64,000 bases of DNA from Actinomycetota bacterium (GTDB taxonomy: Bacteria > Actinomycetota > Geothermincolia > Geothermincolales > RBG-13-55-18): NCBI GenBank assembly GCA_014360645.1, contig JACIXD010000012.1, forward strand, positions 1 through 64,000, given 5' to 3'. Below, piece by piece: positions 2,938 through 24,137 of this stretch. Under the pieces are notes generated by a model. That model ran no database searches, had not been told where the DNA came from, and worked only from the letters and a program-made list of their open reading frames with translations. Positions within the stretch are counted from its first letter, which is position 1; each line of letters opens with the position of its first letter. Both the position numbers and the translations under genes were made by a program.

Positions 2938-3225
2938 TCATGCCACGTAGATGTCCACGTCATGCGAGAAAACCCCTTCGCCCATGATCTCGCTTCTCTC
3001 CACGCATGACTGGCAGATCTTATAAAAGCGCACCAGGGCCTCGTTGTCCGAGATTATCTCCTCCAGCGCTTCCTTCATCTCATGGTATTTCCCCTCGCTG
3101 AGCACGCATTCGAACACGCTCAGCTGCACGTGGTCGCCGTAGTTCTTGAGCTCGTTACAGACCTTCGTCCGCACGCGGTCATTGGGGATATCGTAGACGA
3201 CGACCACGAAATGCCTGACCTGCAT
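2938..3225 (-). CDS. cas2: CRISPR-associated endoribonuclease/integrase subunit Cas2
   Basis: This 95-residue protein has the Cas2 size and ferredoxin-like pattern. It opens with a beta strand and the metal-site region VVVVYDIPND (Asp at about residue 12), and contains the NYGDHVQLSVFEC segment typical of the family. Cas2 dimers bridge two Cas1 dimers in the spacer-integration complex. The gene starts 9 nt after cas1 ends and is the last gene of the leftward cas operon before the leader and array. Nothing appears broken. Confidence 0.97.
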   Translation of the reverse strand: MQVRHFVVVVYDIPNDRVRTKVCNELKNYGDHVQLSVFECVLSEGKYHEMKEALEEIISDNEALVRFYKICQSCVERSEIMGEGVFSHDVDIYVA

Positions 3226-3234
3226 GGGTCGCTC

Positions 3235-4227
3235 CTAACGGGATAGGTAGGGGCGGTAGGGTTTGCGGCCCTGCAGGTCCGCCACCAGCCTGCGAGCCTG
3301 CAGTTGGAAGGCCACCAGGTGATTCACCGGGTTGTCGCGGTCCGGGTGCTTGAACTCCCCGTAGAGCCTCTGGTTGTATTGGGCCACGAACTCCTTTAGG
3401 GCCTTCTCGCTCAGGAAGACCGAACCGTCCTTCTCACGGAAGTCGCCACTATTCAGTATCCCTTTGTTTACACAGGTCAGGGCGAGCGAGTCCACCAGCT
3501 CGGGCCGCCATTCCTCCATAAGGTCCAGGGCGAGAGAAGGCCTGCCGTAGCGGTCGCCGTGGAGGAAGCCCTGGTAAGGGTCCAGGCCTGCCGATTCCAG
3601 GGCAGACCATATGTTGCTCAGCAGTAGGGAATAGCCGAAGCTCAGGAGGGCGTTGAAGGCGTCACGGGGCGGCCTGCGAGTCCTGCAAGGGAAGGCGAAC
3701 TCCTCGGGCAGCAGTTCCCGCAGGGCGGAGAAATATACCGCTGAAGCGCGACCCTCCAGGCCTCGCACCTCATTCAGCGTATCCGCGCCGTGCAGTTCCG
3801 CGAGGCAATGCTTGAGCGCGTTTATGGGTTCCTCCATGCCAGTAAGCCCCCTGCGTCGGCGCTGGCGCTGGAGAATTATCCTTTGGTTGTGCACCTTGCC
3901 GTGCACGAAGCTCTTGGCAAGGTCGAGGCACCTGCACGCGTCTTCCGTGGCCAGGAACTGCAGGCGCCGCAGGGTACCGTGATTGGTGAAGCCCGGCCAG
4001 AGGTGGCCTTTCAGCCTCCCGCGCATGCTGAGGAAGGACACCCCGACGTTCGCCTTGAGCAGGTAGTCAAGGATGGGAACGGTGAAGGACACGTTCCCGT
4101 AGATGATAATCTGGTCCAGCTTGAAGCCGGGGATGTCCGAGATCACCTTGTCGTCTTTCTCGACGATGATCCGGGCACCCTTGCGCCTCAGTTTTGCTCC
4201 TTGTTCAAGTACATAAAGTATCGCCAT
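3235..4227 (-). CDS. cas1: CRISPR-associated integrase Cas1
   Basis: Cas1 is the metal-dependent integrase that inserts new spacers at the leader. The start ATG at 4227 is preceded by GAGGAGG at 6-8 nt and gives 330 residues; an open frame continues 26 codons upstream but lacks family similarity. The N-terminal beta domain (MAILYVLEQGAKL) is followed by the alpha domain with the catalytic residues: Glu in GLEGRASAVYF, His in QGFLHGDRYGRPS, and the acidic LALDLMEEWRP helix. It lies between cas6 (180 nt away) and cas2 (9 nt away). There is no reverse-transcriptase fusion. Confidence 0.97.
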   Translation of the reverse strand: MAILYVLEQGAKLRRKGARIIVEKDDKVISDIPGFKLDQIIIYGNVSFTVPILDYLLKANVGVSFLSMRGRLKGHLWPGFTNHGTLRRLQFLATEDACRCLDLAKSFVHGKVHNQRIILQRQRRRRGLTGMEEPINALKHCLAELHGADTLNEVRGLEGRASAVYFSALRELLPEEFAFPCRTRRPPRDAFNALLSFGYSLLLSNIWSALESAGLDPYQGFLHGDRYGRPSLALDLMEEWRPELVDSLALTCVNKGILNSGDFREKDGSVFLSEKALKEFVAQYNQRLYGEFKHPDRDNPVNHLVAFQLQARRLVADLQGRKPYRPYLSR

Positions 4228-4407
4228 CTTCAGTCCTCCTCGGGCAATCAATAATACGAACGTGGGAACGCCGTGTAACATGGGCCGGGGTGGATGCGCG
4301 GGCACCGCCGCAGGGACAGGGGGCCCCGGGCAGGGGCTGAGCGAGCGGGGGAGGGCAAGAAGAAGCAGGGAGCGCTCAATCGCGCATAGCCGGAATCCCG
4401 GGCACGG

Positions 4408-5229
4408 TCACGCCGCCGGTAACTCGGGCGTGGTGCCGAAGCGGACCTGCCCCATGCCCATGGTGGTCTTCATTCCCAGCCCGGAATACTCGCAGAAGCG
4501 CGCCAGGAGATGCATGGCCCGGCGCAGGTCCTCGTCCTCGGTGCCCAGGATATACTCACAGCGGCCCACCACGCCCACATGGCGGAAGCGGTCGAAATGC
4601 AGGATATGGGTGGAAAGGCTGAAGCGCGAGGGCTGCACGTATCTTTCGGCCAGCTCGTGCAGGTTCGTGCCGAGGTCGACGCGGGATATGGCCGACCATG
4701 CCCGGTTGGCGCTCTGCCACACCAGCCGGGGCAAGGGGAAGAGCATGTTGCGCCCGCCGCTCCGGAAAGCGGTCGGGGTCACGAACCTCAAGGTCAGCTT
4801 GCGCGGTGGCGGCTTCCTCTGCACTATGCACTCGCGGTAGAGGTCATCTGCGTCCACCGCGCCGGCTCGGGTTCCCGCCACGATGAGCTCGGCCTCGCCC
4901 AGCCGGAGGGGGCGCCCCTCCATCCCAGGGAGGATCTCCTCCACCCACAAGCGGGCTAAGCTCTCCTCGAGCATGGTGAAGCGCAGAGTGTAGCACTTTC
5001 CGGCGCCCAGCCTTAGCCTGCCCTGGCCGAGCGACTCCATCTCGCCCATGAGAGTGGAGACGGTGTACGGCTTGGGCGGCTTCATGTCGTGCAGGCGTGC
5101 GGACAACGCCTCGTCCGCCTCTCTCACCAGGTCAAGGAAAACGGCGTTCAAGCGCTGTCCGCCCCCCGCGGATATCTCCATCGTGTCCGGTGCCATCAGG
5201 TCAAGGCACGACTCCAAAAGCAGGCTCAA
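4408..5229 (-). CDS. cas6: CRISPR RNA-processing endoribonuclease Cas6
   Basis: This protein cuts the pre-crRNA at the repeat hairpin to leave the ATTGAAAC handle. It has 273 residues from a TTG start at 5229, chosen because AGGAGGG lies about 8 nt upstream. The C-terminus carries the Cas6/RAMP glycine-rich loop (GLGMKTTMGMGQVRFG, about residues 250-265). The middle RKLTLRFVTPTAFRS is a typical RAMP beta-strand followed by the 'TPT.F' motif of the pfam10040 Cas6 family. The likely catalytic His cannot be chosen with confidence. It lies between the CARF/HEPN gene (119 nt) and cas1 (180 nt) on the same strand, so co-transcription is likely. Confidence 0.92.
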   Translation of the reverse strand: MSLLLESCLDLMAPDTMEISAGGGQRLNAVFLDLVREADEALSARLHDMKPPKPYTVSTLMGEMESLGQGRLRLGAGKCYTLRFTMLEESLARLWVEEILPGMEGRPLRLGEAELIVAGTRAGAVDADDLYRECIVQRKPPPRKLTLRFVTPTAFRSGGRNMLFPLPRLVWQSANRAWSAISRVDLGTNLHELAERYVQPSRFSLSTHILHFDRFRHVGVVGRCEYILGTEDEDLRRAMHLLARFCEYSGLGMKTTMGMGQVRFGTTPELPAA

Positions 5230-5348: not shown

Positions 5349-6812
5349 TCACAGCCTTATGAAGTTGTGACGGTCCACGAGGTCGTCGAGGTCCTCGCCC
5401 ATGATGTTGGCGAGGCGCCCGAGTACAAGGTACGCCTGCTGAGTGAACTCTTCCACGTTGCCGTCGGTGGCGCGCTTGTTGCCATGGATGAGGATCAGCT
5501 CGTTTCTCTTATCTACCGTCTTATGAAATCTCTTCAAACCATCGACGCCTTCTCTTCGCCAGAGTGGATCATCAAAGGCGGCGAGCAGGATGTGCCCGTG
5601 CATCATGCCCAGATCACGCGGCATCCTCACATAGTCGTTTCCGTAAACCTGCCGTGCAAAGTGCTCGTACCTGGCCTTTACCGCTTCAGGAACTAGTTCC
5701 CACCTGAGATTGTCGGTATCGAAGCCTTCCACGCCCTCCGATTCTATCTGTGCCAACCGCAGCTGCGAGACCAGCTCCAGGCAGCGGTAGATCCTCACCA
5801 CCGCGTCGTCGGGCGCTCCCGCTAGCTCTCTCCGCGCCGCGTTGCAGTAGAGGTCGACCGCCAGGTGCAGCCCGAACTCGGGAGACCTCCTTAAGACCTT
5901 GAACAGGCTCTCTCCCCTTGCCTCTCGCGAGAGCGTCTCGAGGACCATCAGGTTGCTGTCCAACCCGTCCAGGTCCACCTCAAGCTCGAACCTTTTGGCG
6001 GATTCCCTTGCTTTTCGAAGCTCTTCGCATGCCCGCCTGAAGTGGAACCTGTCCCAGAGGGAATACCCACGGACGATCCTTTCGAGAGTCTCCACCCGCG
6101 TCGCCACGGAAAGCGCCCTCTTGCCCTGGATCTCTCCCCTGACCTCTCTCAACTTCTCCGCAGCCGCCTCGAAGCTCCCGGCGTTGAACAGGTCCAGGCA
6201 CTGCCGGATCTTCAGCTCCCCCAGGGTGATGTAGGGGTTGGGCAGCTGGGTGAGGTATTCCGTGCCCGGCATGGGGGTCCTCAGCTCCGCGAGGTATTTC
6301 TCGTGGTCGACGTACAGGATGTCTATACCCAGGAAATTCGCCGCCGCCGCGGCCGCACTGACCATCGATTTCTTTCCCCCGGTATTGTCCAGGGCACAGC
6401 GCATCTCGCCCTCCCGCGACCACTCCTCCCAGCGCCTGCCGATCTTCTCGTATATATCCACCGGGTCGTCGGGATTCACCTTCTCGCGATCGTAGTGCAC
6501 CTCGTGCCGGCGGAGAAAATCAACCTCCTGGATCACCCTGGACAGGTGCGCTTCCGTGTCGGCAGTGTAGATGAAGAACACCCTGGAAGGCCTGACCGCG
6601 TCAAGGGTGAGGATGAGGGGCTGGGGAGTCGTGCCCACGGTCATGATCAGGGCGTCGTACCTGTTCTTGAACTCGGTGCACTTGCGCCGGAATTCCCCGC
6701 GGATGAGCGGGAACAACTCATCCCAGTAGAGCTTATCGGCCTCTTCCTTGCGTCCTGATTCGTGCAGCTCCAACCACTTCTCGCGCAGAGCGTCTATCCT
6801 CTTTCCCCCCAT
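5349..6812 (-). CDS. CARF-HEPN ribonuclease, TIGR02710/Csm6-like, cOA-activated effector
   Basis: This 487-residue ancillary effector of type III CRISPR. The CARF (ligand-binding) domain shows the TVGTT motif at residues 58-62 and DNTGGKKS at 142-149, matching the TIGR02710 branch of CARF proteins. The C-terminal domain has an HEPN ribonuclease motif, R436-(6 residues)-H443 (RNELILIH). In this family, binding of cyclic oligoadenylate made by Cas10 switches on non-specific RNA cleavage. The start at 6812 follows GAGGAGGAGGG. It lies 62 nt downstream of the sigma-factor gene and upstream of cas6. CARF assignment is strong; nuclease activity is inferred from the motif. Confidence 0.9.
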   Translation of the reverse strand: MGGKRIDALREKWLELHESGRKEEADKLYWDELFPLIRGEFRRKCTEFKNRYDALIMTVGTTPQPLILTLDAVRPSRVFFIYTADTEAHLSRVIQEVDFLRRHEVHYDREKVNPDDPVDIYEKIGRRWEEWSREGEMRCALDNTGGKKSMVSAAAAAANFLGIDILYVDHEKYLAELRTPMPGTEYLTQLPNPYITLGELKIRQCLDLFNAGSFEAAAEKLREVRGEIQGKRALSVATRVETLERIVRGYSLWDRFHFRRACEELRKARESAKRFELEVDLDGLDSNLMVLETLSREARGESLFKVLRRSPEFGLHLAVDLYCNAARRELAGAPDDAVVRIYRCLELVSQLRLAQIESEGVEGFDTDNLRWELVPEAVKARYEHFARQVYGNDYVRMPRDLGMMHGHILLAAFDDPLWRREGVDGLKRFHKTVDKRNELILIHGNKRATDGNVEEFTQQAYLVLGRLANIMGEDLDDLVDRHNFIRL

Positions 6813-8537: not shown

Positions 8538-8588
8538 GCTTTTCAGCAGAGGCCTACCTGATCGAGGCTATGTTTGGGGGAGGATGAA

Positions 8589-11057
8589 TTGTCACAATTC
8601 AAGGACTTGGTCATCGGTTCTTTACTGCACGACATTGGCAAACTCGTTCAGAGAGCCGATCCTAACCCGAGTTCCAAAACACACCAGCAATTCGGAGCCG
8701 ATTGGCTTGAGGAGTTCGATTTTCTAAAAAAGTACAGCGCATATTCTCTTTGGCATCATACAAGGGAAGCTCGGCAAGAAAAGGTGCCACTTCTTATGGT
8801 TGTGAATGCCGCGGATATGTTAGCTGCAGGAGAGAGGACAAAACACGAGGAGGATGCCAAGACATCCTGGGAGAGAGAGATACCGTTGCTCTCCATATTC
8901 TCGAAGATACGGGTTGATGACGGTGACTCAGACCCCGGAGAAGCGTCTGTTTCCTCGCCGCGTTACTACCCCTTGAAACAGGCAGACACGGTGTTTTTCC
9001 CATGTCATCTGCATGACGAGATAAAAGGAACCCGCGAAGCCTATGCGGCCCTGTTGTCAGGCCTCGAAACGGATATCAGGGCTATCGAGCGCGCTTTTGG
9101 TGTCAATACCCTACTTGTTCTGCTCGAGAAATATCTGAGTTACGTACCCGGTGATACTAGGGTCGAGGGGGGAGCCCCGGAAAGAGACCCCGACATCAGC
9201 CTGTTCGACCACCTGAAGCTCACGGCGGCAATCTCTTCTTGCCTTTATGGATACATGATCGAAAAGCAGCCGGACGTGGACGGTTGGGACGAGGAATTCA
9301 TCTATGATGCCGCGGAGAAACGTTATATTGTTCTCGACGCTGACCTTTCCGGTATCCAGCCCTTCATCTACAACATCTCCTCAAAAGGAGCCCTGAGGTC
9401 ACTGCGGGCACGGTCGTTCTATCTCGAGATGGTGTGCGAGAACATCGCGAACAGGATACTGCACACATGCGGACTCGAAAGGGTGAACTTGATCTTCAGC
9501 GGTGGAGGCAGGCTGCGGTTGCTCATGCCCAACACCGAGAAAGCGAGAGAGGCGGCAAGGGAAACCGAGAAGGCAGCCAACGCGTTTTTCCGGGACGAGC
9601 TTTCGGGAAGTATCGGACTGAACGTAGCCTGGGAGGAGTTCGCCGGATTGGAGATGATGAGGAGCTCCGAGCAGGGTGGCGAAAGCCAGAGATCCTACAA
9701 GAAAGTGCTCGAGGACCTGCGCGTCAAGCTTGAGACGCGAAAGAAGGATAGGATCATTGATGAGCTGATCGAGCGCAGATTCGAGATGCTCGGGCCCTTC
9801 GAGCCCGGGGAAGACGAGTGCAGGATATGCCATTGCGAGAGCGACGAACTAGAGCCTTTGCGAGAGCATGCGGAGGGCGAAGAGCCGGTGCTTTCCTGCC
9901 CATTGTGCAGGGACCTATACGTTCTTGGCGGTAGCTTGAGGGGGCTTGAGAGGCTGTGGATGTCCGAGGACGAGGTGTCCGGCTATCACTCCTTGCGGCT
10001 GCCGTTCGGCCATCTTCTCTGGCCCAAAGATGAAGAAGCGAGTGAGCCCGAGGGAGGGTGGGGCATAGTTCTCGACAAAAGGTGGGATGCCGACTCATAC
10101 CACTCACCAAATGATTATGGGTTGAGCTATCCCCACTACCGTGAGGGGGAAGATTTCGAGGACCTTGCGGAGAAATCCTGCGGAGCCCACTGGCTCGGCA
10201 TACTGCGGATGGATGTCGACGACCTGGGAAGGATATTCGGCGGCGGTATTCCCGAGCAAGAGATGAGCTTCACCCGCATATCCGTGCTGTCTCGGCTGAT
10301 GAACAACTATTTTAGGGAGGTCCTGCCCAGCGTCCTCAGAGGCGGCGCGGAGGGTTATGAAAACTTCACCGTCCTGGAAGACACGCGTTTCCCACGCCCG
10401 CTCGAAATAGTGTATGCGGGAGGCGACGATCTCTTCATCGTGGGTGCGTGGAACCATATAATCGAGGCGGCCTTCGACATCAGGGAGACGTTCGCGCTTT
10501 ATACCTGTGAAAACCAGGGCATCCATATAAGCGGTGGCATCGTAATAAGCAGGCACGACCATCCCCTTTACGACCTGGCGCGTATCGCGGAGATCGCGGA
10601 GAACAACGCGAAAAGCGTTGATCGCTCAAAAGACCGCATCGAGATCTTCGGGCGGACAGGCAAGTGGCAGAAGTACAGCCGAGCGGTTGAGCAACTGCTC
10701 CTGCCATTTCTGAACCTCGGAGAGGGCAAGGGGGTAGTGAAAAAGACCGAGAACGGGAATAAACACGCCGAACTGGCTCTTTCTCGCGCGTTCTTGCGCA
10801 ACGTGATGGCGATCGCGCGCAGATATGAAAGCCTTCAGCGCAGCGGTGAATCAGGCAAGCTGGCCTTTCCCTATCTTGCATATACGGTTGCGCGAGCGCG
10901 GGAAACGATCAAGAAGGATGGGCACAATGGGGGAGAGCTTCCTGAGAGGTGGATGACCCTCGAGAGAGCGCTCTTCGATATAGGCAATTACGACATCCTT
11001 TATTCGCTTGCATCATGGGCAGACTTACTGTCAAGAGGAGGTAGAACAGATGAATAG
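8589..11057 (+). CDS. cas10: Cas10/Csm1, type III-A cyclic oligoadenylate synthase and DNase subunit
   Basis: This is the large subunit of the Csm interference complex. I chose the TTG at 8589 because GGAGG ends 5 nt upstream (822 residues); a TTG at 8574 would add five residues. The N-terminal HD nuclease motif LLHDIGK (His14-Asp15) is intact, as is the cyclase motif AGGDDLF (GGDD about 611-614). Both ssDNA cleavage and cOA synthesis are therefore predicted. A zinc-finger-like insert (CRICHC ... CPLCRD, about 410-445) and the first palm domain (DADLSGIQPFIYNISS) are present. Its stop overlaps the csm2 start. It is first in the rightward operon, whose two CARF partners would be triggered by its product. 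Confidence 0.97.
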   Translation: MSQFKDLVIGSLLHDIGKLVQRADPNPSSKTHQQFGADWLEEFDFLKKYSAYSLWHHTREARQEKVPLLMVVNAADMLAAGERTKHEEDAKTSWEREIPLLSIFSKIRVDDGDSDPGEASVSSPRYYPLKQADTVFFPCHLHDEIKGTREAYAALLSGLETDIRAIERAFGVNTLLVLLEKYLSYVPGDTRVEGGAPERDPDISLFDHLKLTAAISSCLYGYMIEKQPDVDGWDEEFIYDAAEKRYIVLDADLSGIQPFIYNISSKGALRSLRARSFYLEMVCENIANRILHTCGLERVNLIFSGGGRLRLLMPNTEKAREAARETEKAANAFFRDELSGSIGLNVAWEEFAGLEMMRSSEQGGESQRSYKKVLEDLRVKLETRKKDRIIDELIERRFEMLGPFEPGEDECRICHCESDELEPLREHAEGEEPVLSCPLCRDLYVLGGSLRGLERLWMSEDEVSGYHSLRLPFGHLLWPKDEEASEPEGGWGIVLDKRWDADSYHSPNDYGLSYPHYREGEDFEDLAEKSCGAHWLGILRMDVDDLGRIFGGGIPEQEMSFTRISVLSRLMNNYFREVLPSVLRGGAEGYENFTVLEDTRFPRPLEIVYAGGDDLFIVGAWNHIIEAAFDIRETFALYTCENQGIHISGGIVISRHDHPLYDLARIAEIAENNAKSVDRSKDRIEIFGRTGKWQKYSRAVEQLLLPFLNLGEGKGVVKKTENGNKHAELALSRAFLRNVMAIARRYESLQRSGESGKLAFPYLAYTVARARETIKKDGHNGGELPERWMTLERALFDIGNYDILYSLASWADLLSRGGRTDE

Positions 11058-11481
11058 AGAAAGAGCCGAGAGCCATACTGCGAATGTCGCTGGGAAGATC
11101 AAATCGCTGAGAAAGATGTCCGAGTTGGAAGTTGAGGATATGATCACCTTGGCAGAAGAGATGGGGAGGCGTTTAAGCTCGAGAGAGGTTGATCTTAAGC
11201 GAAGTCAGATCAGGAGATTCTTGGACGCCGTAAAAAAGATAGAGGCCCAGGTCAAAAGAAATCCAGAGCAGTTCAGCCGCGAGTCGCTCCTGCTCTTGAA
11301 ACCTAAACTCGCCTATGCCACGGGAAGGCTGAGGGAAGGCAAGAATAATCCGCTCGGGCCGTTTCAGGAAGTGATCGATCCTGCCATCGACAGGGTTAAA
11401 GACTACGCCGATTTCATGAGGTTTGCGAATTTTATGGAATCGATAATAGCGTACCACCGATTCCACGGCGGAAAAGAATAG
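11050..11481 (+). CDS. csm2: Csm2, small subunit of the type III-A complex
   Basis: This all-helical, 143-residue protein is of the size of Csm2 (Cas11). It contains the conserved ending LRFANFMESIIAYHRFHGGKE-like segment (FMRFANFMESIIAYH), which is characteristic of the family. The ATG at 11050 overlaps the cas10 stop and is preceded by AGGAGG inside cas10; an open frame extends 14 codons upstream but without a ribosome site. Csm2 lines the groove between Cas10 and Csm5 and contacts target RNA. Confidence 0.92.
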   Translation: MNRERAESHTANVAGKIKSLRKMSELEVEDMITLAEEMGRRLSSREVDLKRSQIRRFLDAVKKIEAQVKRNPEQFSRESLLLLKPKLAYATGRLREGKNNPLGPFQEVIDPAIDRVKDYADFMRFANFMESIIAYHRFHGGKE

Positions 11482-11499
11482 GATTAAGGGGGTTCAAAA

Positions 11500-12279
11500 A
11501 TGAGCGAGATATCGCAGCTTCCATTGCTCGGAAAGGTCTTTATCTCAGGAAAACTGATATGCTGTACCGGTCTCCATATCGGCGCATCGAAGGAGACCCT
11601 GGAGATCGGTGGGATTGACTCGGCCGTGGTGAGGGACCCCCTGACCCGCCAACCATATATTCCCGGGAGTTCGCTCAAAGGAAAACTGCGCTACCTCATG
11701 GAGAGAAGCGAGAAGGTGCTGTTCAACCGGTCAACCGGACAGGGCAAAAGACACGAGTGCCCGGAACGGGGATGCCCGGTTTGCAGGCTGTTCGGAAGCA
11801 CGGGGGCAAGGGAGGGGGACAACATCCCGTCCCCGCTGCGCGTCAGGGACCTGTTCTTGACCGAAGAATCCAGAGATTTGCTGGAAAAGATGGAAACCCC
11901 CCTTCAGTATACGGAGTGGAAGTTCGAGAACGCGCTGGATCGCGTGACCGCGGCGGCTAACCCGCGCAACCTAGAGAGGGTGCCCGCGGGGGCTGAGTTT
12001 CAGTACGAGATAGTCTATGATGTCCTCGACTTCGATCAGGCCAGGGAGGACCTGGCCAATCTCCTGCGCATGATGCAGCTTCTGGAGGACGACGCCTTGG
12101 GGGGGCACGGCTCTCGCGGCTACGGGAAAGTGGCATTCGCGGCGAATCGCATGGAAGTTCGCACCATCGATCAGTACAAGGGCGAAGCGGGCGAGGCTGT
12201 TGCGGTTGAGGCTGATAAGCTGGACGGGCTGGCCGCAAAGCTAGAAGAGTTGTTCAAAGCACTAGCCAACGGAGGTTAA
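11500..12279 (+). CDS. csm3: Csm3 (Cas7-type) RNase backbone subunit
   Basis: This 259-residue RAMP protein forms the repeated backbone of the complex. GGIDSAVVRDP places the catalytic Asp at residue 40, equivalent to Asp33 of Streptococcus thermophilus Csm3, which cleaves target RNA every 6 nt. IPGSSLKGKLRYL is the Csm3 signature, and GGHGSRGYGKVAF is the glycine-rich loop. A CPERGCPVC pair of cysteines (about 88-96) suggests a zinc site. It lies 18 nt after csm2. Confidence 0.97.
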   Translation: MSEISQLPLLGKVFISGKLICCTGLHIGASKETLEIGGIDSAVVRDPLTRQPYIPGSSLKGKLRYLMERSEKVLFNRSTGQGKRHECPERGCPVCRLFGSTGAREGDNIPSPLRVRDLFLTEESRDLLEKMETPLQYTEWKFENALDRVTAAANPRNLERVPAGAEFQYEIVYDVLDFDQAREDLANLLRMMQLLEDDALGGHGSRGYGKVAFAANRMEVRTIDQYKGEAGEAVAVEADKLDGLAAKLEELFKALANGG

Positions 12280-12280
12280 G

Positions 12281-13258
12281 GTGGGTGTCGTCCTTATCAA
12301 GCCCAGGACGCCTCTGCATCTCGGAGAGGCGACCGGCGCTCTTGAGAGGATAAGCGGTGTCATCCACACCGACACCTTATTCAGTGCCCTGTGCCATGCA
12401 TGGGGATACCTTTTTGGAAAAGACGGAGTGGATGGACTGCTTGCGGCATACGCCAATGGAGGGCACCCGATACGCATCTCATCCGCCTTTCCCTACACGG
12501 AGACCAACGGTGAATGTGGACCCCACAGGGCATATTACTTGCCGGCTCCGCCCAACCTGGGCTCGGCCTTCGGCCCCCAGACAGGAAAAGAGGCAAAGAA
12601 GCTGCGCTACATCACAGCGACGATGTACGGAAAATGGCTCGATAATGGATTGGCAGAGGAAGACCTCGAAGATATGGTACGGGCACAGCAGTCAGTGGAC
12701 GAAGCTTTCGAGATCAGAGCCGATGTGCACGTAGCCCTGGACAGGCCTACGCTCAAGGGACTTCCCTACTACGTATCGCGCCTGCACTGCCGGCAGGGCG
12801 GAGGCTTCTATTTCCTATACGAATGTGATCCAGCAGTGGAGAAGGATTTCAGGAGTGCCATGAGATTCCTCGGAGAACTAGGGATCGGAGGGGAGCGGAG
12901 CACCGGGAGCGGCGCATTCGAGCCGGAGTTCCTCGACTCAGAGCTGCTTCCCAGCCCTGGATATGCGGATTCAGGCGCATGGCTTTGCCTGAGCCTTGCT
13001 TTCCCCAGAGAAGATGAGCTGGACAAGCTCAAAGGTTCGCAAATCGCTCTCCTGGAAAGAAAAGGATGGATAAGTTCCCCCTTTACGCCTGATTCGTTTC
13101 GGAGAAAGAGGCTCCTCATGATCGCGGAAGGGTCCTTCCTGTCTGATAAAATGGAAGGTTGTATTGTTGACGTCACTCCATCCATCTGGAAGAAGGAGCT
13201 GCATCCCGTTTACCGTTATGGGCTTGCTTGGCTGATACCTGCCAGGAGTGTGGCTTGA
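12281..13258 (+). CDS. csm4: Csm4 (Cas5-type) crRNA-handle-binding subunit
   Basis: This 325-residue protein starts at GTG 12281, one base after the csm3 stop, with GGAGG 5 nt upstream. LKPRTPLHLGE-like N-terminus (IKPRTPLHLGEATG), HTDTLFSALCHAWG and the glycine-rich GIGGERSTGSGAF loop are Csm4 hallmarks. Csm4 caps the complex beside Cas10 and holds the 5' handle of the crRNA. Its stop overlaps the csm5 start (TGATG). Confidence 0.95.
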   Translation: MGVVLIKPRTPLHLGEATGALERISGVIHTDTLFSALCHAWGYLFGKDGVDGLLAAYANGGHPIRISSAFPYTETNGECGPHRAYYLPAPPNLGSAFGPQTGKEAKKLRYITATMYGKWLDNGLAEEDLEDMVRAQQSVDEAFEIRADVHVALDRPTLKGLPYYVSRLHCRQGGGFYFLYECDPAVEKDFRSAMRFLGELGIGGERSTGSGAFEPEFLDSELLPSPGYADSGAWLCLSLAFPREDELDKLKGSQIALLERKGWISSPFTPDSFRRKRLLMIAEGSFLSDKMEGCIVDVTPSIWKKELHPVYRYGLAWLIPARSVA

Positions 13259-14439
13259 TGGAAACGTTGAACCTGCGGTTGGAAGCGTTGACACCGGTAA
13301 GAATAGGTTCGTATGTGGGTCAGATAACACCTTACGACTATGTGATCTCCGGCGGCAACTGCTACGTGATCAGTGACGATAAGCTTTCTGCGTTTCTTGG
13401 AGAGAAAGGCCTCATCGAGGATTTCTCAGAAGCGATCAGAAGGAAAGGCCAAGCCTTCAACATCGGGGATTATCTCGCTTCGAATGGGGTCAGCGACGAA
13501 GCTGGGCTAAAAAGCCTGTCGCGTTATGTAGTGCAGGTCCACGGTAATGCGCGCCCACTGCAGATGATGCCTCTCATACGGGACGTAGGAAATAAACCCT
13601 ACGTGCCAGGCTCCTCCATAAAGGGCGCCATAAGAACAGCGGTCATCTACAACTACCTGAAGGGCTTGAAGAGCTCGGACCAAAGACGCTTCGAGCAGGA
13701 CTTCATAAGAAAAATAGAAAGAAGGATCACAGATATCGAACAAAGGGAAAGGCGCAGGCCTGCCAGAGGGAGCAAGGGGTTCGCCAAAAGAATAGTCGAG
13801 GAAGGCATAGCGCAGTACTTCGATCTCGAAAGATATACCAGGAGGGACGGCTCGTATCTCCACGACCCTCATACCGATATCTTCCGCTGCCTGAAGGTAA
13901 CGGATGCTCTTCCATCAAAACCGCATAACCGCATATACGATTTCAGGGTTCTGGACAAACAGAACAACGGCAGCCTCTCGTTCGAGTCCCCTATCTTCGC
14001 AGAGGCCCTCTCCCCGGGTGCCGCCTTTGAGTTCACCCTGTCTTGGGACGCATGGCTTGCTGAGCGGTTCAAGGAAAGAAACGAGCTTTTAGTTGACGGC
14101 CTGGAGCAAATACTCCAGGCCTGCAGGGTGTTCGTCTCAGACCAGATCGAGTGGGAGCGCGAGTTCTTCGAATCCTGCGGGAAGGGCGACAGGGATCCAG
14201 GGAAGATAATCGATTCGCTTTCTACCATGGAGGCCGATATTCGTTTGGGATGGGGTTCGGGCCTGGTGGGAGCGAGCCTGTCGATGCTGCTTCCCGAACC
14301 AACAAGGAAGAGGCTGCGCGATCTATTCTACCGCCGGGGCTCATCGGCAGTCAGGGATTTTCCCAAGTCGCGCCGAGTCATGGTGGAGAACGAAAAGCCT
14401 GTATCGCTTCTCGGTTTTTGTAAGCTGATAGTTCTTTAG
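13258..14439 (+). CDS. csm5: Csm5 (Cas7-type) terminal subunit
   Basis: This 393-residue RAMP protein starts at the ATG overlapping the csm4 stop; an open frame reaches 13228 but lacks a ribosome site. LEALTPVRIGSYVG and YVPGSSIKGAIRTAVIYNYL are the Csm5 signatures, with MEADIRLGWGSGLVG as the glycine-rich loop near the end. Csm5 sits at the 3' end of the crRNA and helps its maturation. The CARF gene follows after 15 nt. Confidence 0.95.
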   Translation: METLNLRLEALTPVRIGSYVGQITPYDYVISGGNCYVISDDKLSAFLGEKGLIEDFSEAIRRKGQAFNIGDYLASNGVSDEAGLKSLSRYVVQVHGNARPLQMMPLIRDVGNKPYVPGSSIKGAIRTAVIYNYLKGLKSSDQRRFEQDFIRKIERRITDIEQRERRRPARGSKGFAKRIVEEGIAQYFDLERYTRRDGSYLHDPHTDIFRCLKVTDALPSKPHNRIYDFRVLDKQNNGSLSFESPIFAEALSPGAAFEFTLSWDAWLAERFKERNELLVDGLEQILQACRVFVSDQIEWEREFFESCGKGDRDPGKIIDSLSTMEADIRLGWGSGLVGASLSMLLPEPTRKRLRDLFYRRGSSAVRDFPKSRRVMVENEKPVSLLGFCKLIVL

Positions 14440-14454
14440 GGTGCGCATAAAGCC

Positions 14455-15591
14455 ATGAGGAAGATCGTTATCTGCACACTTGGGACGAGCCTCTTCTACC
14501 CCAACCTGTCCTCGATACCGGAGAACAACGAAGAGCTTGCCGGGTTGCGCAGGGCTTATCTGGAGCGGAACTGGGAGGCGCTCGCCGAGGAGCTCTACTG
14601 CCGAGACCCGAAAGACCGCATCTGCGGGGCCGAGATCAACAGCATGGCCAGCTTGCTCGAGGAAGGGTTGATCTCCGAAAGAGGCTCTCTTTACCTCTGC
14701 CATAGCGACACGCAGGACGGTCATGATGTTGCCGAAGTATTGAAGAATTATTACCGTCGCAGTGAATGGCAAGTCACGACCGAGCAGATTGAGGGACTGC
14801 ACGACGAAAACCCAAAGAGTTTCCGAACCCGGGGATTAAGAAACCTTGCCAAGACCATATCCCGCATAGTCAGGGAGTCCGGTTCCCCGGAGCTGTGCGC
14901 TATAAACGCCACCGGGGGCTATAAGGCGCAGATTGCCATCGCCGTTATGCTTGGCCAGGTCTTTGACATCCCAGTATATTACAAGCACGAGCGCTTCCCT
15001 ATGATCATCTCCCTGCCGCCCCTTCCGATCTCCCTCGACTTCCGCTACTGGGTGAAAAAATGCGGGGTCCTGCTTTCCCTGGACAAGGAGGATATCCTGC
15101 CATCCAGCGCTCTGGAGGAGGACTGGGATGAAAAGATGGAGGCCCTGGTCGAACGCGAGAAGATCGACGGTGTCCAGTATGTGGAGCTCTCTCCCTTAGG
15201 GGCGATCTTCCTTGAGGCCTTCAAAAGTTATTTCGAGCGCCAGTCGACCTCTCTACTCCCGATTGCCGTCGACCCTGCTGCGAAGAAAGCTGTCCGGCTA
15301 TCCGACCACTCATGGGGTGGGGCGCATACCAAAGTCAAGGCCTTCTTGCAGAAGATCGTCGACTTGGTCCCTTACGTCAAGGAAGTCAAAACGGATTATT
15401 TAAATCCCGACCTGCCGAAAGCAAGCTATTTCCGTCTGCGTGGCTCGGATAAGATCGAGGGCGTCCTGTCCAATGGCACATGGACCGTGAAATTCATCGT
15501 TTTTACTAGTGCCTCCAACCCATCTCAACTCGAGTCGGCGGTTGCCGACCTCAACATCAGGCTCAATCGTGGTGATTTTGGAAGTGTATGA
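14455..15591 (+). CDS. CARF protein of the APE2256/TIGR02619 family, probable CARF-RelE (Cami1-like) effector
   Basis: This 378-residue protein ends the csm operon, 15 nt after csm5. The N-terminal CARF domain shows ICTLGTSLF (residues 6-14) and NATGGYKAQI (151-160), the signature of the APE2256 group. A middle linker (about 200-280) is followed by a small alpha/beta domain (about 285-378: HTKVKAFLQKIV ... VKFIVFTSAS). In this family that position is occupied by a RelE-like mRNA interferase (Cami1, a ribosome-dependent nuclease activated by cOA). The CARF call is firm. The RelE call rests on family architecture and length; I could not identify catalytic residues with certainty. Confidence 0.85.
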   Translation: MRKIVICTLGTSLFYPNLSSIPENNEELAGLRRAYLERNWEALAEELYCRDPKDRICGAEINSMASLLEEGLISERGSLYLCHSDTQDGHDVAEVLKNYYRRSEWQVTTEQIEGLHDENPKSFRTRGLRNLAKTISRIVRESGSPELCAINATGGYKAQIAIAVMLGQVFDIPVYYKHERFPMIISLPPLPISLDFRYWVKKCGVLLSLDKEDILPSSALEEDWDEKMEALVEREKIDGVQYVELSPLGAIFLEAFKSYFERQSTSLLPIAVDPAAKKAVRLSDHSWGGAHTKVKAFLQKIVDLVPYVKEVKTDYLNPDLPKASYFRLRGSDKIEGVLSNGTWTVKFIVFTSASNPSQLESAVADLNIRLNRGDFGSV

Positions 15592-15739: not shown

Positions 15740-16810
15740 TTAACTGTGTCTCGCCTTACTCAAAGCCTGGCAAAACCAGGGTCCGGAGAGCTTCCAGAAG
15801 GCCTGTTCCTTTCGGGGGAAGTGTTTTTGGTTCTTCTCCATAAAGTATGTGAGAAACAAGGACCATCGCCCACCATCTGCGAAGGTTTTTGCGGAAGTAA
15901 AGCAAGCGCAGAAGGGAGCGACGACGGTCAGGAAAAAGGATATCGATCAGCCGGTGGGCATTCAGGGATAACGGGTGGTAGCCCTTGACTTCGGAGAGGG
16001 AAAGGACAGCGGGGAGAAGGGGCTGGTGGTGGAGATCGCAAGGGCCGAGGAGAAAAGCGATCGACGCCGAGGAGCGGGCGGTGTTCTGGGTGGGCAAAGA
16101 CCGCGGGCAGGGGACTCCGGAGGATTTCTTCTCCCTCTTCAGGGAGGAGAGCTGCTCGGGCGTCCTCGCCTGCTGTATGGACATGCGGGACCCTTTCGAG
16201 GCGGCGTTGAGGAAGTGGTGCCCGCAGGCGGAGATCGTCTGCCACCCCTTTCACATCATCTCCTCCTACGGGCGGGAGGTGGTGGAAAAGGTACGGGCGG
16301 CCGAGGCCAAGAGGGGGCAGGGCAAGCATAAGGACGCATACAAGGGCACCCCTGCGTCCCGCTCTCCGGCCCGGAGGATCTTCTTGGCCGGCAGCACGAG
16401 AAGCTCCGAACCGCTTTCCATGGGCAAGAGGCTGTTCGCCTTCTATCCGCTGAAGGACGGCTTAAAGCGCCTCCGGCGATGCCGCAGCCCCCATTGGGCG
16501 GAGCGTTTCCTCCGGGCTGGCACCTGAGGGCCGCCTACACCGAGATCGAGCCCCTGAAGAAGTTCGCCGGGATGCTCAAAAGAAGGCTAGCCGGCATCCT
16601 GGCCCACTGCCGCTATCCTATTCATGCCGGCGTGCTCGAGGGTATCGACAACAGATACCCACCATGCGCTTCAGGCCCCGCAACAAAAGCATCTTTTCCC
16701 CGGAGCTGTACAGAGCCGCCGCCAACTTTTTGTTCTCACACCAAGAAATGCCCAACACCGCCGGCACCCCCAAGAAAGCTCTCTTCCGGCTCCCTTCGTG
16801 GATCTTTTAA
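15740..16810 (+). pseudogene. Degenerate ISL3-family transposase
   Basis: Pieces of an ISL3 transposase occur in order but in different frames. VVALDFGEGK (near 15975) is the first catalytic-Asp region. FWVGKDRGQGTPEDFF (near 16085) and ACCMDMRDPF ... CPQAEIVCHPFHII (16170-16260) correspond to the second Asp region. AYTEIEPLKKF ... HAGVLEGID (16530-16650) is the C-terminal Glu region. At least two frameshifts and internal losses separate them, so it is inactive. I did not find clear terminal inverted repeats. It sits just after the csm operon inside the presumed island. Confidence 0.8.
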
Positions 16811-16952
16811 CCCTTAAATTAAGCGCAATAGACATATGCACGATCTCATACAGGCCACAACGAAGATGACACTACCTTATGCTACATTAATATCAAGAAA
16901 TCGAGGAAAGGAGCTTACAATGGAAAAAATGGGGTGAAAGCCCACGGTTTTC

Positions 16953-20961: not shown

Positions 20962-21720
20962 TCACGCGGTCTCTCTTCCGCTGCCCACGCATTCCTGCCA
21001 AAACCCAGGTTCGTCTCCTACTTTCGCCGTGACATAGAAGTTTGGTCGGGAAAATCCCATGAACTCCGTGGCGTAGACATCGGTGTACGCCCCGGTGGGG
21101 GAGAATATCAAGCGGTCCCAAACTCGGGTGTCGCCAAGCCTCGCTCCCTTTTGGATGGTATCGTCGGGGTCACAGGTCGGCCCGGCCAACACGTATTCCC
21201 TGACCGGCCCGGCTTCCCCCCGCGTGATGTTGCGCACGCGGTAGGACATGGTCAGCCCCGATTGAAAACCCTCAAATAATCCGTGCAGCGCCCCCACGTC
21301 CAGGTACAGCCCCCCGCGGGAAGCTCTACCGATGACCGACGCCACCAGGATTCCGGCATCCGCCACCAGAGCCTCCCCGGCTCCGCCATCAACTCCGTCC
21401 CCGGGGGGAACGCCTCCAGACAGCGCAAGACGTCCGCGCCGATGGCGTCTATGGCGGGCACCGGGCAATTATACGCTACCGGAAAGCCCCCGCCGATTTT
21501 AAGGCGGCGCAGCGGCAGCTCCTTCGCCTCGCCCCACACGCGCAACGTCAGTTCCAATGCACGAGCCCAGCGGTCCCATCCAGGCGCTGCGAACCGACAT
21601 GAAAGGCCGTCCCGCAAGGGTACAGCCCCAAGCGCTCCGCCGCGCGTAGGAGGTCCACCGCCTCATCGGGGGTCGCCCCAAACTTCTGGTTGAGAGAAAA
21701 CACGCTGTCCTCCCCAGGGA
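20962..21720 (-). pseudogene. Fold-type III PLP decarboxylase (ornithine/DAP type), truncated and frameshifted
   Basis: Three frames on the minus strand carry consecutive parts of an alanine-racemase-fold decarboxylase. KFGATPDEAVDLL ... FHVGSQ lies near 21690-21590, LKIGGGFPVAYN ... MAEPGR at 21510-21390, and LYLDVGALH ... VLAGPTCDPDDT ... FSPTGAYT (the C-terminal substrate-cysteine region) at 21315-21080. Two frameshifts (about 21575 and 21385) break it. The N-terminal third, with the PLP lysine, is absent because the gene ends abruptly at the tRNA fragment at 21721. Confidence 0.8.
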
Positions 21721-21765
21721 CTTACAAGCAGGAGGTCGTGGGTTCAAATCCCGCAACGCCCACCA
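21721..21765 (+). other. tRNA-Val(TAC) 3' fragment: probable island attachment site
   Basis: The 45 nt begin exactly at a tRNA anticodon loop (CTTACAA, anticodon TAC) and continue through the 3' anticodon stem (GCAGG), variable loop, T arm (GTGGGTTCAAATCCCGC) and acceptor end with CCA. The expected 5' half (CCTGC stem and earlier) is missing: the bases to the left belong to the broken decarboxylase. Identity starting in an anticodon loop is typical of tyrosine-integrase attachment sites. The intact tRNA would be at the other end of the island, to the left of the window. No integrase is seen here. Confidence 0.8.
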
Positions 21766-21773
21766 GATAACGC

Positions 21774-21795
21774 GGGGCCGCTTCGGCCCCTTTTT
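21774..21795 (+). terminator. Intrinsic terminator of the original tRNA-Val gene
   Basis: A 7-bp perfect stem, GGGGCCG (21774-21780) with CGGCCCC (21784-21790), a 3-nt loop and TTTTT immediately after. It lies 9 nt beyond the CCA of the tRNA fragment, so it is the native tRNA terminator on the chromosomal side of the junction. From here to the next gene at 22033 nothing else is evident. Confidence 0.85.
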
Positions 21796-22032
21796 ATATC
21801 GCCCCCTCGAGGACGACAAGCGGGGATAGGCCTTACGGATTCCTACGCTCTTTGGCCAGTAGGCCCAGGCCGGAGCGCGTTTCCTCCGCCCGGGTTTAAA
21901 TCGGGGGTTCATGGCGCGGTGATGCGCGCACGGCAGGAGGCCGTAAGGCCTATGCCCCGCATTGACCGGCCGGAAAAGGTCACCCTATGATGTTCTTGCA
22001 GGCAAAGAAGGTGATGTAAGGAGGCCGGAAGC

Positions 22033-22821
22033 ATGGACCAGTCCCCGGAGGAAAAAGCCGAGCTGCTCATGGGAAAGGCGGAGGCGCCGGAAACGCGCCT
22101 GGAGGCGGAGCTGGCCTTCCGCTACCTTTCCAGGTACCTGGAGCAGGAGATAAGGCGGACGGGGGAGCTCAACGTGCTCGACGTGGGGAGCGGGCTGGGT
22201 GAGGTGGCCCTGCGCTTCGCCGCCCTGGGACACAAGGTGACCATGCTGGAGCCGCAGGCGTGCCTGCTGCAGACGGCGGAGGAGAGGGCGCGGCTGCAGC
22301 TCCCCGACCGCGCCAGCTACATGCGCTTCCTCAACGAGCGCGTGGAGAACCTGGAGGGGTGCATCGAGGAGGATTTCGACCTCGTCATCTGCCACGAGAC
22401 CATCGAGTACGTCGACGACCCGCTGCGCGCCTTCAACGTCATCACCCGCGTGCTGCGCCCCCGGGGTACCCTCTCCCTGGTCTTCCTCAACCGTTACGGC
22501 CTGGTGATGCGCAAGGTCATCGCCGAGGGGAACATCCGGGAGGCCATGGACGCTTTCGACATCGACGAGTTCCCCACCCCCCTACACAGCGGGCGCGGAC
22601 ACCTCTACTCGGACGCCGAGCTCATCGCCCTCCTGGAACCGCTGGGATATGACATCGTGGAGCAGTACGGGCTTCTGGTCTTCTCGGAGTTCATCGATTG
22701 CTCGCTCTTCGAGGACGGCCAGTGTTTCAAGGGAATGTTGGAGCTGGAAGAGCGGGCGGGACAGGAGCCCCATCTCAAGGGCGTGGGCAAGTTCGTCCAG
22801 CTCATCTGCTCCAAATCCTGA
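22033..22821 (+). CDS. Class I SAM-dependent methyltransferase
   Basis: This 262-residue protein has motif I LNVLDVGSGLGEVALRFA (about residues 47-64) and the post-I acidic residue in VTMLEP, followed by DLVICHETIEYV (motif IV) and VLRPRGTLSLVF (motif VI). The overall pattern, including LHSGRGHLYSDAELIALLE, resembles CmoM-type tRNA wobble-uridine methyltransferases, but the substrate cannot be fixed. ATG 22033 follows AAGGAGGCCGGAAGC. It converges with the phosphoesterase gene, 8 nt apart. Confidence 0.85.
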   Translation: MDQSPEEKAELLMGKAEAPETRLEAELAFRYLSRYLEQEIRRTGELNVLDVGSGLGEVALRFAALGHKVTMLEPQACLLQTAEERARLQLPDRASYMRFLNERVENLEGCIEEDFDLVICHETIEYVDDPLRAFNVITRVLRPRGTLSLVFLNRYGLVMRKVIAEGNIREAMDAFDIDEFPTPLHSGRGHLYSDAELIALLEPLGYDIVEQYGLLVFSEFIDCSLFEDGQCFKGMLELEERAGQEPHLKGVGKFVQLICSKS

Positions 22822-22829
22822 AGGGCAGC

Positions 22830-24137
22830 TCAGCCCGTCTCCGGCGCATCGCCGCCCGCGGCGTCGCCGTCCCGCCGGACCCGGTCGATACGGCGCAGCG
22901 AGGCGTGGTATCCCCCCAGCCCACGGCGCACCACGGCATAGGTGAGGAGCTGCTGGTAGAGGCTCTCGTCCCTGAGGTCGCGCCAGCGCAGCTGCCGCCT
23001 GGTGCGGGTGAGGAAGAGCATGGGTATCCAGGTGCCGGTGTTCACGTAGTACTTCCCCTTTTTTCCTCCCAGCACCGGCTGCAGCTCGTTGGAGTAGTAG
23101 CGGTGGTCGTGCCCGAAGACCACCACGTCTATACCCTGATCGGAGAGGAGGAGGTCGCGCGCCGCCACCGAGAGGGCGTCCTCGCGCGTGGCCAGAGAAT
23201 CCAGCAGCAGCCCCTCCTGCTCGCGTGCCGGCTCCTCGTGCTCCTCCTCGGGGGGGAACTCCGCGCTCAGGCCCTCGGCGTCGTCGATGCCCATCAGCTC
23301 CACCTTACCGCGGCCGGAGAGCAGGTCCAGGAAACGCTTGCGCGTATATCCCCAGCTGTCCAGGCGCCCCTCGCGCTTGCGGCGCAGGAGCTCGCGGCTC
23401 TCGCGGAAGGGCGGGAAGCCTACCCGGGACATGAACCGCATGAGCTTGTAGCCGTAGGCGAGCTTGAACCACCAGCTCTCGTCCTGGATGCCCATGAAGA
23501 CCATGTTGGGGATGGGACGCACGTTGTTGATGAAGGGGTTGCGCTCGCTCATCATCCCGTTAGAAAAATATTCCAGGAAACAGTTTCCCCAGCTGCGCTC
23601 GAGGCGCAGCTCCCCCGTCTTGGGGTCGCGAAGGAAGGGGTGGGTGAAATGCTCGAAGACGCTGTCGGCATAGTACTGGTTGCCGTGCTCCACGTGCACG
23701 CTGCCGAAACGGTACACCCCGCTGGCCTCGAAATGAAAATGGTCGGAATCCGGACCGCCCAACACCTCCAGCAGACGGTCCCGCACCCGTGGCCAGAAGA
23801 GGTCGACGTCGTGGTTCCCGGGTACCACCACCACGCGGTGTCCCTTCTCCATGAAGCGCCGCAGGGCTTCGAAGCAGTGAGCGTGCGCCTCCAGCACGCG
23901 CTCCAGTTTGGAGAGGGACTCCCCCTCGGTGCACCCCATGCGCGAGAAAGGCCGGTGAGAGGGTTTTTCCAGGTTCACGGCCACGAAATCGATCCAGTCG
24001 CCGTTCAGGATCAGCTCGGCGCCGCGGCGCTTCGCCGCCGTGGTGAGGAAGGCGACGAAGGCCTCGTCCTGGTCGAAATCGTCCAGGTAATCGCCCGCTC
24101 CCAGGTGCAGGTCGCTGACTATGAACCTCGTCCTCAC
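22830..24137 (-). CDS. Metallophosphoesterase (calcineurin-like)
   Basis: This 435-residue protein has all the metal motifs in order: SDLHLG (residues ~8-13), NGDWIDF (~45), GNHDVDLF (~108), a central HVEHGN, and GHDHRYY (~345). A long insert of charged residues (EEEHEEPAREQEG) separates the core halves. The family includes UDP-2,3-diacylglucosamine hydrolase-like and other phosphodiesterases; the substrate is not deducible. There is no signal peptide. Confidence 0.88.
   Translation of the reverse strand: MRTRFIVSDLHLGAGDYLDDFDQDEAFVAFLTTAAKRRGAELILNGDWIDFVAVNLEKPSHRPFSRMGCTEGESLSKLERVLEAHAHCFEALRRFMEKGHRVVVVPGNHDVDLFWPRVRDRLLEVLGGPDSDHFHFEASGVYRFGSVHVEHGNQYYADSVFEHFTHPFLRDPKTGELRLERSWGNCFLEYFSNGMMSERNPFINNVRPIPNMVFMGIQDESWWFKLAYGYKLMRFMSRVGFPPFRESRELLRRKREGRLDSWGYTRKRFLDLLSGRGKVELMGIDDAEGLSAEFPPEEEHEEPAREQEGLLLDSLATREDALSVAARDLLLSDQGIDVVVFGHDHRYYSNELQPVLGGKKGKYYVNTGTWIPMLFLTRTRRQLRWRDLRDESLYQQLLTYAVVRRGLGGYHASLRRIDRVRRDGDAAGGDAPETG

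Follow-up and report, generated by a model that had tools for sequence, protein, structure and literature searches.

A tRNA-Val 3′ fragment at the right end of a probable genomic island carrying a type III-A CRISPR system

The window, meaning the whole 64,000-nt stretch analyzed here, comprises positions 1–64,000 of contig C12 in a genome (G000) of 3.38 Mb assembled into 34 contigs. It starts at C12 position 1, and there is no C12 sequence further left. The following features were located in it.

1–168, + strand: contig begins within an IS transposase, of which the C-terminal end is present (open frame up to a stop)
252–2475, + strand: CRISPR array with 30 identical repeats
2938–3225, − strand: cas2 (PF09827)
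3235–4305, − strand: cas1 (PF01867 on 3235–4230)
4408–5229, − strand: cas6 (PF10040)
5349–6812, − strand: Csm6-type HEPN protein (PF09670, PF22205)
8574–14439, + strand: type III-A effector genes cas10/csm1, csm2, csm3, csm4 and csm5
14455–15591, + strand: Cas_APE2256-family protein (PF09651)
15985–16817, + strand: broken ISL3-family transposase (PF01610 in two frames)
20962–21710, − strand: remnant of a PLP-dependent ornithine/DAP/arginine decarboxylase (PF00278, three-frame reading)
21721–21770, + strand: displaced tRNA-Val(TAC) 3′ half plus 5 nt, read as attR (50-nt identity to C16:85093–85167)
21774–21795, + strand: intrinsic-terminator-like hairpin with a T run, 3′ of the fragment (read from the sequence)
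21796–21834, + strand: left part of a 47–61 nt cassette end ('B site'), broken off here
22033–22821, + strand: SAM methyltransferase, chromosomal flank, neighbor of tRNA-Val in relatives
22830–24137, − strand: calcineurin-like phosphoesterase, chromosomal flank

The CRISPR locus is of type III-A, with cas10/csm1 accompanied by csm2 and RAMP genes. Pfam matches to Csm1_B, the Cas10 palm, Csm2_III-A, RAMPs and Csm4_C underlie the effector assignments, the names csm3 and csm5 being inferred from gene order. The Cas_APE2256-family protein is presumably of the CARF type. A histidine kinase is also encoded in the stretch left of the tRNA fragment. On another contig, a lone CRISPR repeat with one mismatch to that of the window was seen (G000:C2:311736–311772). 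A preliminary description of this DNA had noted broken mobile genes on the left, and the two-frame ISL3-family transposase pieces bear this out. The decarboxylase remnant is broken across frames and is truncated some 10 nt short of the tRNA fragment.

Positions 21721–21765 are the 3′ half of a tRNA-Val(TAC), the first base being the first base of the anticodon loop. From CTTACAA (the anticodon loop, with TAC) the sequence proceeds through the 3′ anticodon stem, variable loop, T arm and acceptor strand to the CCA at 21763–21765. The abrupt start in the anticodon loop and the run to CCA and terminator are therefore as first described. ARAGORN called no tRNA in the window and no Rfam family reached its gathering score there, so the element is a fragment. 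Between it and the methyltransferase gene lies an inverted repeat (23 nt, 87%; 21822–21844 / 21935–21957), which overlaps the broken cassette end.

An intact tRNA-Val sharing this block, for which a search had been proposed, was found in the same genome at C16:85093–85167. A 31-nt core of the fragment occurs three times in the genome: in the window, at C16:85123 (exact) and at C24:1974 (one mismatch), the latter two being the intact tRNA-Val(TAC) genes. Against the C16 gene the fragment is identical at exactly 50 of 50 nt (21721–21770), with no further match leftward, and both lie on the + strand of their contigs in the same orientation. Sharing was thus confirmed; the block, put at 45 nt in the preliminary description, extends five bases past the CCA. 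Derivation from the C24 gene was considered and rejected, since its 3′ half differs from the fragment in the T arm. With 50-nt identity to one gene and a difference from the other, the fragment belongs to the C16 gene. Tandem 72-nt repeats were observed directly behind that gene (L005:15356–15533).

A decayed third tRNA-Val gene, its 5′ half deleted and no island involved, would account for a fragment of this kind, and the junction does adjoin a broken gene. Simple decay fits poorly, however, with a break precisely at the anticodon loop, where crossovers commonly fall (PMC4383910), and with an identity to the C16 copy that continues beyond the CCA. The surroundings of the two copies were compared in relatives. 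The methyltransferase gene was sought in 39 genomes, the own one included, and was found in 16 relatives (G001 and G003–G017) at E 3.6e-66 or better; 15 of these loci were taken at length and that of G017 over 2.8 kb only. A tRNA-Val(TAC) lies upstream of it, at a distance of 257–10612 nt, in 11 of the 16 (G001, G003, G004, G006, G008–G012, G015 and G016). None was seen in the stretches scanned around the methyltransferase in G005, G007, G014 and G017 (2.8 kb in the last).

Directly before the C16 tRNA are genes for a TPR protein, an ABC membrane protein and an ABC ATPase. In G001, of the same genus, and in G012, all five flank genes are arranged around one tRNA-Val(TAC) on a single contig: the C16-side genes (ABC, ABC membrane, TPR) precede it, and the methyltransferase and phosphoesterase genes come after, with a tRNA-to-methyltransferase gap of 10.6 kb in G001 and 4.7 kb in G012. 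G004 and G008 come close to an empty site: a different gene from the C16 side lies before the tRNA, and 257 and 287 nt, respectively, separate the tRNA from the methyltransferase gene. A comparison with strains lacking the island had been suggested at the outset; in these relatives, which lack it, the chromosome is contiguous around one tRNA gene. The window flanks and those of the C16 tRNA correspond in these relatives, which again argues against a gene that decayed in place.

Base composition changes close to the fragment, a further point against decay alone. The GC content is 55.9% for 1–21720 (57.4% without the CRISPR array) versus 65.5% for 21771–64000. The genes on the left had been called AT-richer, and this holds as a step; the best single change point, however, is at 21080–21160, about 0.6 kb left of the tRNA fragment, because the GC-rich decarboxylase remnant abuts the junction.

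A similar junction is present elsewhere. In G013 the tRNA-Val upstream of the methyltransferase was seen as a 3′ half only; this half gene starts at the anticodon loop, 8.8 kb upstream of the methyltransferase, and separates DNA of 41.4% GC from DNA of 64.4% GC. G010 contains a further tRNA-Val half with the same anticodon-loop break, inverted. Independent decay would have to account for like breaks in G013 and G010. The presence of an inverted copy among the G010 fragments is more in keeping with another explanation, in which the C16 tRNA-Val and the fragment were linked by a later rearrangement, either IS-mediated or through homologous recombination between tRNA-Val genes, rather than by an integrase. 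Two IS copies at the contig breaks also fit a rearrangement. Nevertheless, the direct orientation and the restriction of the fragment to the 3′ half fit integration, and the junction falls in the anticodon loop in three genomes; an origin by rearrangement is considered very improbable.

The identical block, the synteny of the flanks, the compositional step and a second genome with a like junction are direct observations. Together, the shared block, the GC step and the flank synteny in relatives indicate that the left part of the window is the right end of an island, and the fragment is very probably the attR of a genomic island inserted into tRNA-Val(TAC) by site-specific recombination in the anticodon loop. 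The element would have integrated there, its own matching 3′ half rebuilding the tRNA gene that is now on C16 and the original 3′ half being pushed to the far side, as window positions 21721–21770. A tyrosine integrase, now missing, presumably made the insertion.

The C16 side suggests how far the island extends. C16 continues 3.5 kb past the tRNA to the contig end, where an IS transposase runs off the contig, and both ends of C16 break inside the N-terminal part of a two-copy transposase. The start of C12 is presumed to be the C-terminal part of the same transposase; its first 175 nt also start contig C27. The assembly was apparently interrupted by two copies of a single IS. From the synteny and the contig breaks, we infer that the right end of C16 was joined to C12 through one IS copy. 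This joining agrees with the synteny, and the island would then measure 25.2 kb or more (3.5 kb on C16 and 21.7 kb on C12). The other pairing of the IS halves, C16 right with C27, is possible. C27 encodes a DNA methylase and a Bpu10I-type restriction gene. The 3.5 kb on C16 have 63.4% GC, close to the 66.0% of C16:70001–85092.

The proposal that positions 1–21765 are integrated DNA is supported by the block shared with C16 and by the flanks around a single tRNA-Val in relatives. Its left boundary has to be moved: this part of the window is the right end of the island, which takes in a further 3.5 kb or more on C16. The intact tRNA-Val expected to the left of the window does exist, on the separate contig C16, to which the window is probably linked.

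No integrase gene was found in the 3.5 kb on C16 or the 21.7 kb on C12, the middle of the IS being unassembled, and the suggestion that one lies nearby was not borne out. The own genome has two PF00589 (tyrosine recombinase) genes, on C3 and C2, both outside the island; by length and neighbors they read as housekeeping Xer-like recombinases. No PF07508 serine recombinase was detected in the genome. An integrase absent nearby is what a decayed gene would predict; given the evidence on the other side, decay is nonetheless thought most unlikely. Since no integrase was found in it, the integrated element is filed as the remains of a tRNA island and not as a complete autonomous element.

The locus is a well-supported case of a familiar type, the tRNA island with a displaced 3′ fragment. 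In the Islander catalogue, the ends of islands are marked by an intact tDNA and a displaced 3′ fragment of like orientation, and class 'A', with its crossover in the anticodon loop, is common (2083 islands, Table 1; PMC4383910). The window locus shares the intact tDNA and same-orientation 3′ fragment and corresponds to the A class. It differs in that the assembled island is without an integrase gene, and the Islander integrase filter would reject the candidate (PMC4383910).

The interval behind tRNA-Val was found to have a structure of its own in relatives. Repeated ends of about 47 nt, with the consensus AGGACGACAAGTGGGGTAAGGTCTTCCAAGGGCCTTAACGCCCACCA and closing like the tRNA-Val 3′ end (CCTTAACGCCCACCA), sit between tRNA-Val and the methyltransferase and also behind some tRNA-Val(CAC) genes. 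They are present in nine of 15 family genomes, mostly behind tRNA-Val, where they bound cassettes of 0.09–6.6 kb. A model, R1, was built from 15 such ends, and matches were counted at E 1e-3. This gave 39 matches in the nine genomes, including that of the window itself (21797–21834) and one at C4:285237. The remnant in the window matches R1 with E 3.4e-5 (nhmmer 1.5e-5, model positions 1–39), and the terminator-like hairpin before it aligns with the beginning of 90-nt units found in relatives. Outside the family, none of 16 further class genomes had a cassette end at E 1e-5, and an exact pattern of 24 fixed bases gave no match in viral contigs. Scored against the 47-nt end, the 20 nt left of the window fragment reached a mean attained by 2.5% and 3.3% of random left-side and right-side 20-mers, respectively, and no resemblance is claimed.

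Twenty-one of the 39 matches are on a contig with tRNA-Val, eight belong either to the tRNA–methyltransferase locus, truncated there by the end of a contig, or to the window, and ten are unlinked. Leaving G010 aside, all 16 linked ends lie downstream of the tRNA and point the same way as it does; of the five linked ends in G010, two share the tRNA orientation. The further end in the own genome (G000:C4:285237–285293; L112:17236–17293) is about 370 nt from a contig end, with no tRNA in the 17 kb upstream. The consensus end folds as an imperfect hairpin, one of whose 12 pairs is backed by a two-sided change.

Altogether 22 cassette units were defined, three of them minis of 89–92 nt; tandem cassettes occur at L038, L039, L043, L046, L048, L050, L105 and L107–L111. 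Most unrelated units are alike over the last 33–80 nt or so alone, typically 47, and a few pairs with different genes have 200–270 nt in common. A 2.19 kb AbiEi-type unit is the fourth unit at tRNA-Val(TAC) in G001 and the first in G003; it also occurs in G002 and, in G012, behind tRNA-Val(CAC), where it comes after a group II intron reverse transcriptase gene. The latter (RVT_1, GIIM; L108:8718–10127) lies just behind the tRNA. Other cargo comprises Fic proteins of two kinds, ParE with an RHH protein, an HTH gene, a Schlafen/AlbA_2 gene, a glycosyltransferase and an amidohydrolase. Two of ten cargo proteins searched, the AbiEi partner and one that is PIN-like by eye, had no Pfam match.

Integron cassette arrays and CALINs consist of small tandem cassettes with toxin/antitoxin-like cargo and a conserved end site, mostly in one orientation. 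The arrays in the relatives are like them in each of these respects; they differ in that the site ends as a tRNA-Val 3′ end with CCA and that an integron integrase was not identified. Nor is the match to the attC core consensus, GTTRRRY, more than a near one, the other strand of the site reading GTTAAGG. A likeness to Acinetobacter pdif modules may also be drawn: these are reported to be small, some with toxin–antitoxin genes, and to be moved without a recombinase of their own. The pdif modules, for their part, are bounded by XerCD dif-like sites. The Dehalococcoides ssrA islands resemble the arrays as tandem units downstream of one RNA gene, where direct repeats of its 3′ end separate them; some are without an integration module and are described as possible cis-mobilizable elements (PMC3146451). 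The anchor there is tmRNA and the enzyme the serine integrase DsiB, whereas the anchor here is tRNA-Val and units are as small as 89–92 nt (PMC3146451).

No PF00589 match of the 15 family genomes was on the tRNA-Val–methyltransferase contigs examined, and PF07508 detected a large serine recombinase in one of the 15. G000, G010 and G012 have 47-nt ends and just two tyrosine recombinases each; G001, G007 and G014 encode extra integrases. We tentatively suggest, with the odds rather against it, that tRNA-Val is a fixed entry point of integron-like cassette arrays in Geothermincolia-type Actinomycetota, with a recombinase acting in trans. Units of 0.09–6.6 kb that carry toxin, defence or other genes and close with the conserved 47-nt site would be added in tandem behind tRNA-Val by a recombinase encoded elsewhere. 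This is possibly the housekeeping Xer pair, given the three genomes that combine such ends with just two tyrosine recombinases. The CRISPR island of the window would sit at the same entry point but would have used the anticodon loop.

This compact, cassette-like arrangement behind tRNA-Val, in which no dedicated recombinase was seen, may be new; the mechanism proposed for it is putative. The integron-like layout in the relatives is more novel than the island of the window; the literature on Solincola and Geothermincolia, judged mainly by titles, held little, and nothing on this locus.

For the organism, the right end of a CRISPR-carrying island is fixed to the base, and an insertion at a tRNA gene most likely brought in its type III-A system. 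For the family, tRNA-Val is exposed as an insertion hotspot used by many relatives and, if a recombinase acting in trans is confirmed, would anchor a gene-capture platform that resembles an integron but rests on a tRNA gene.
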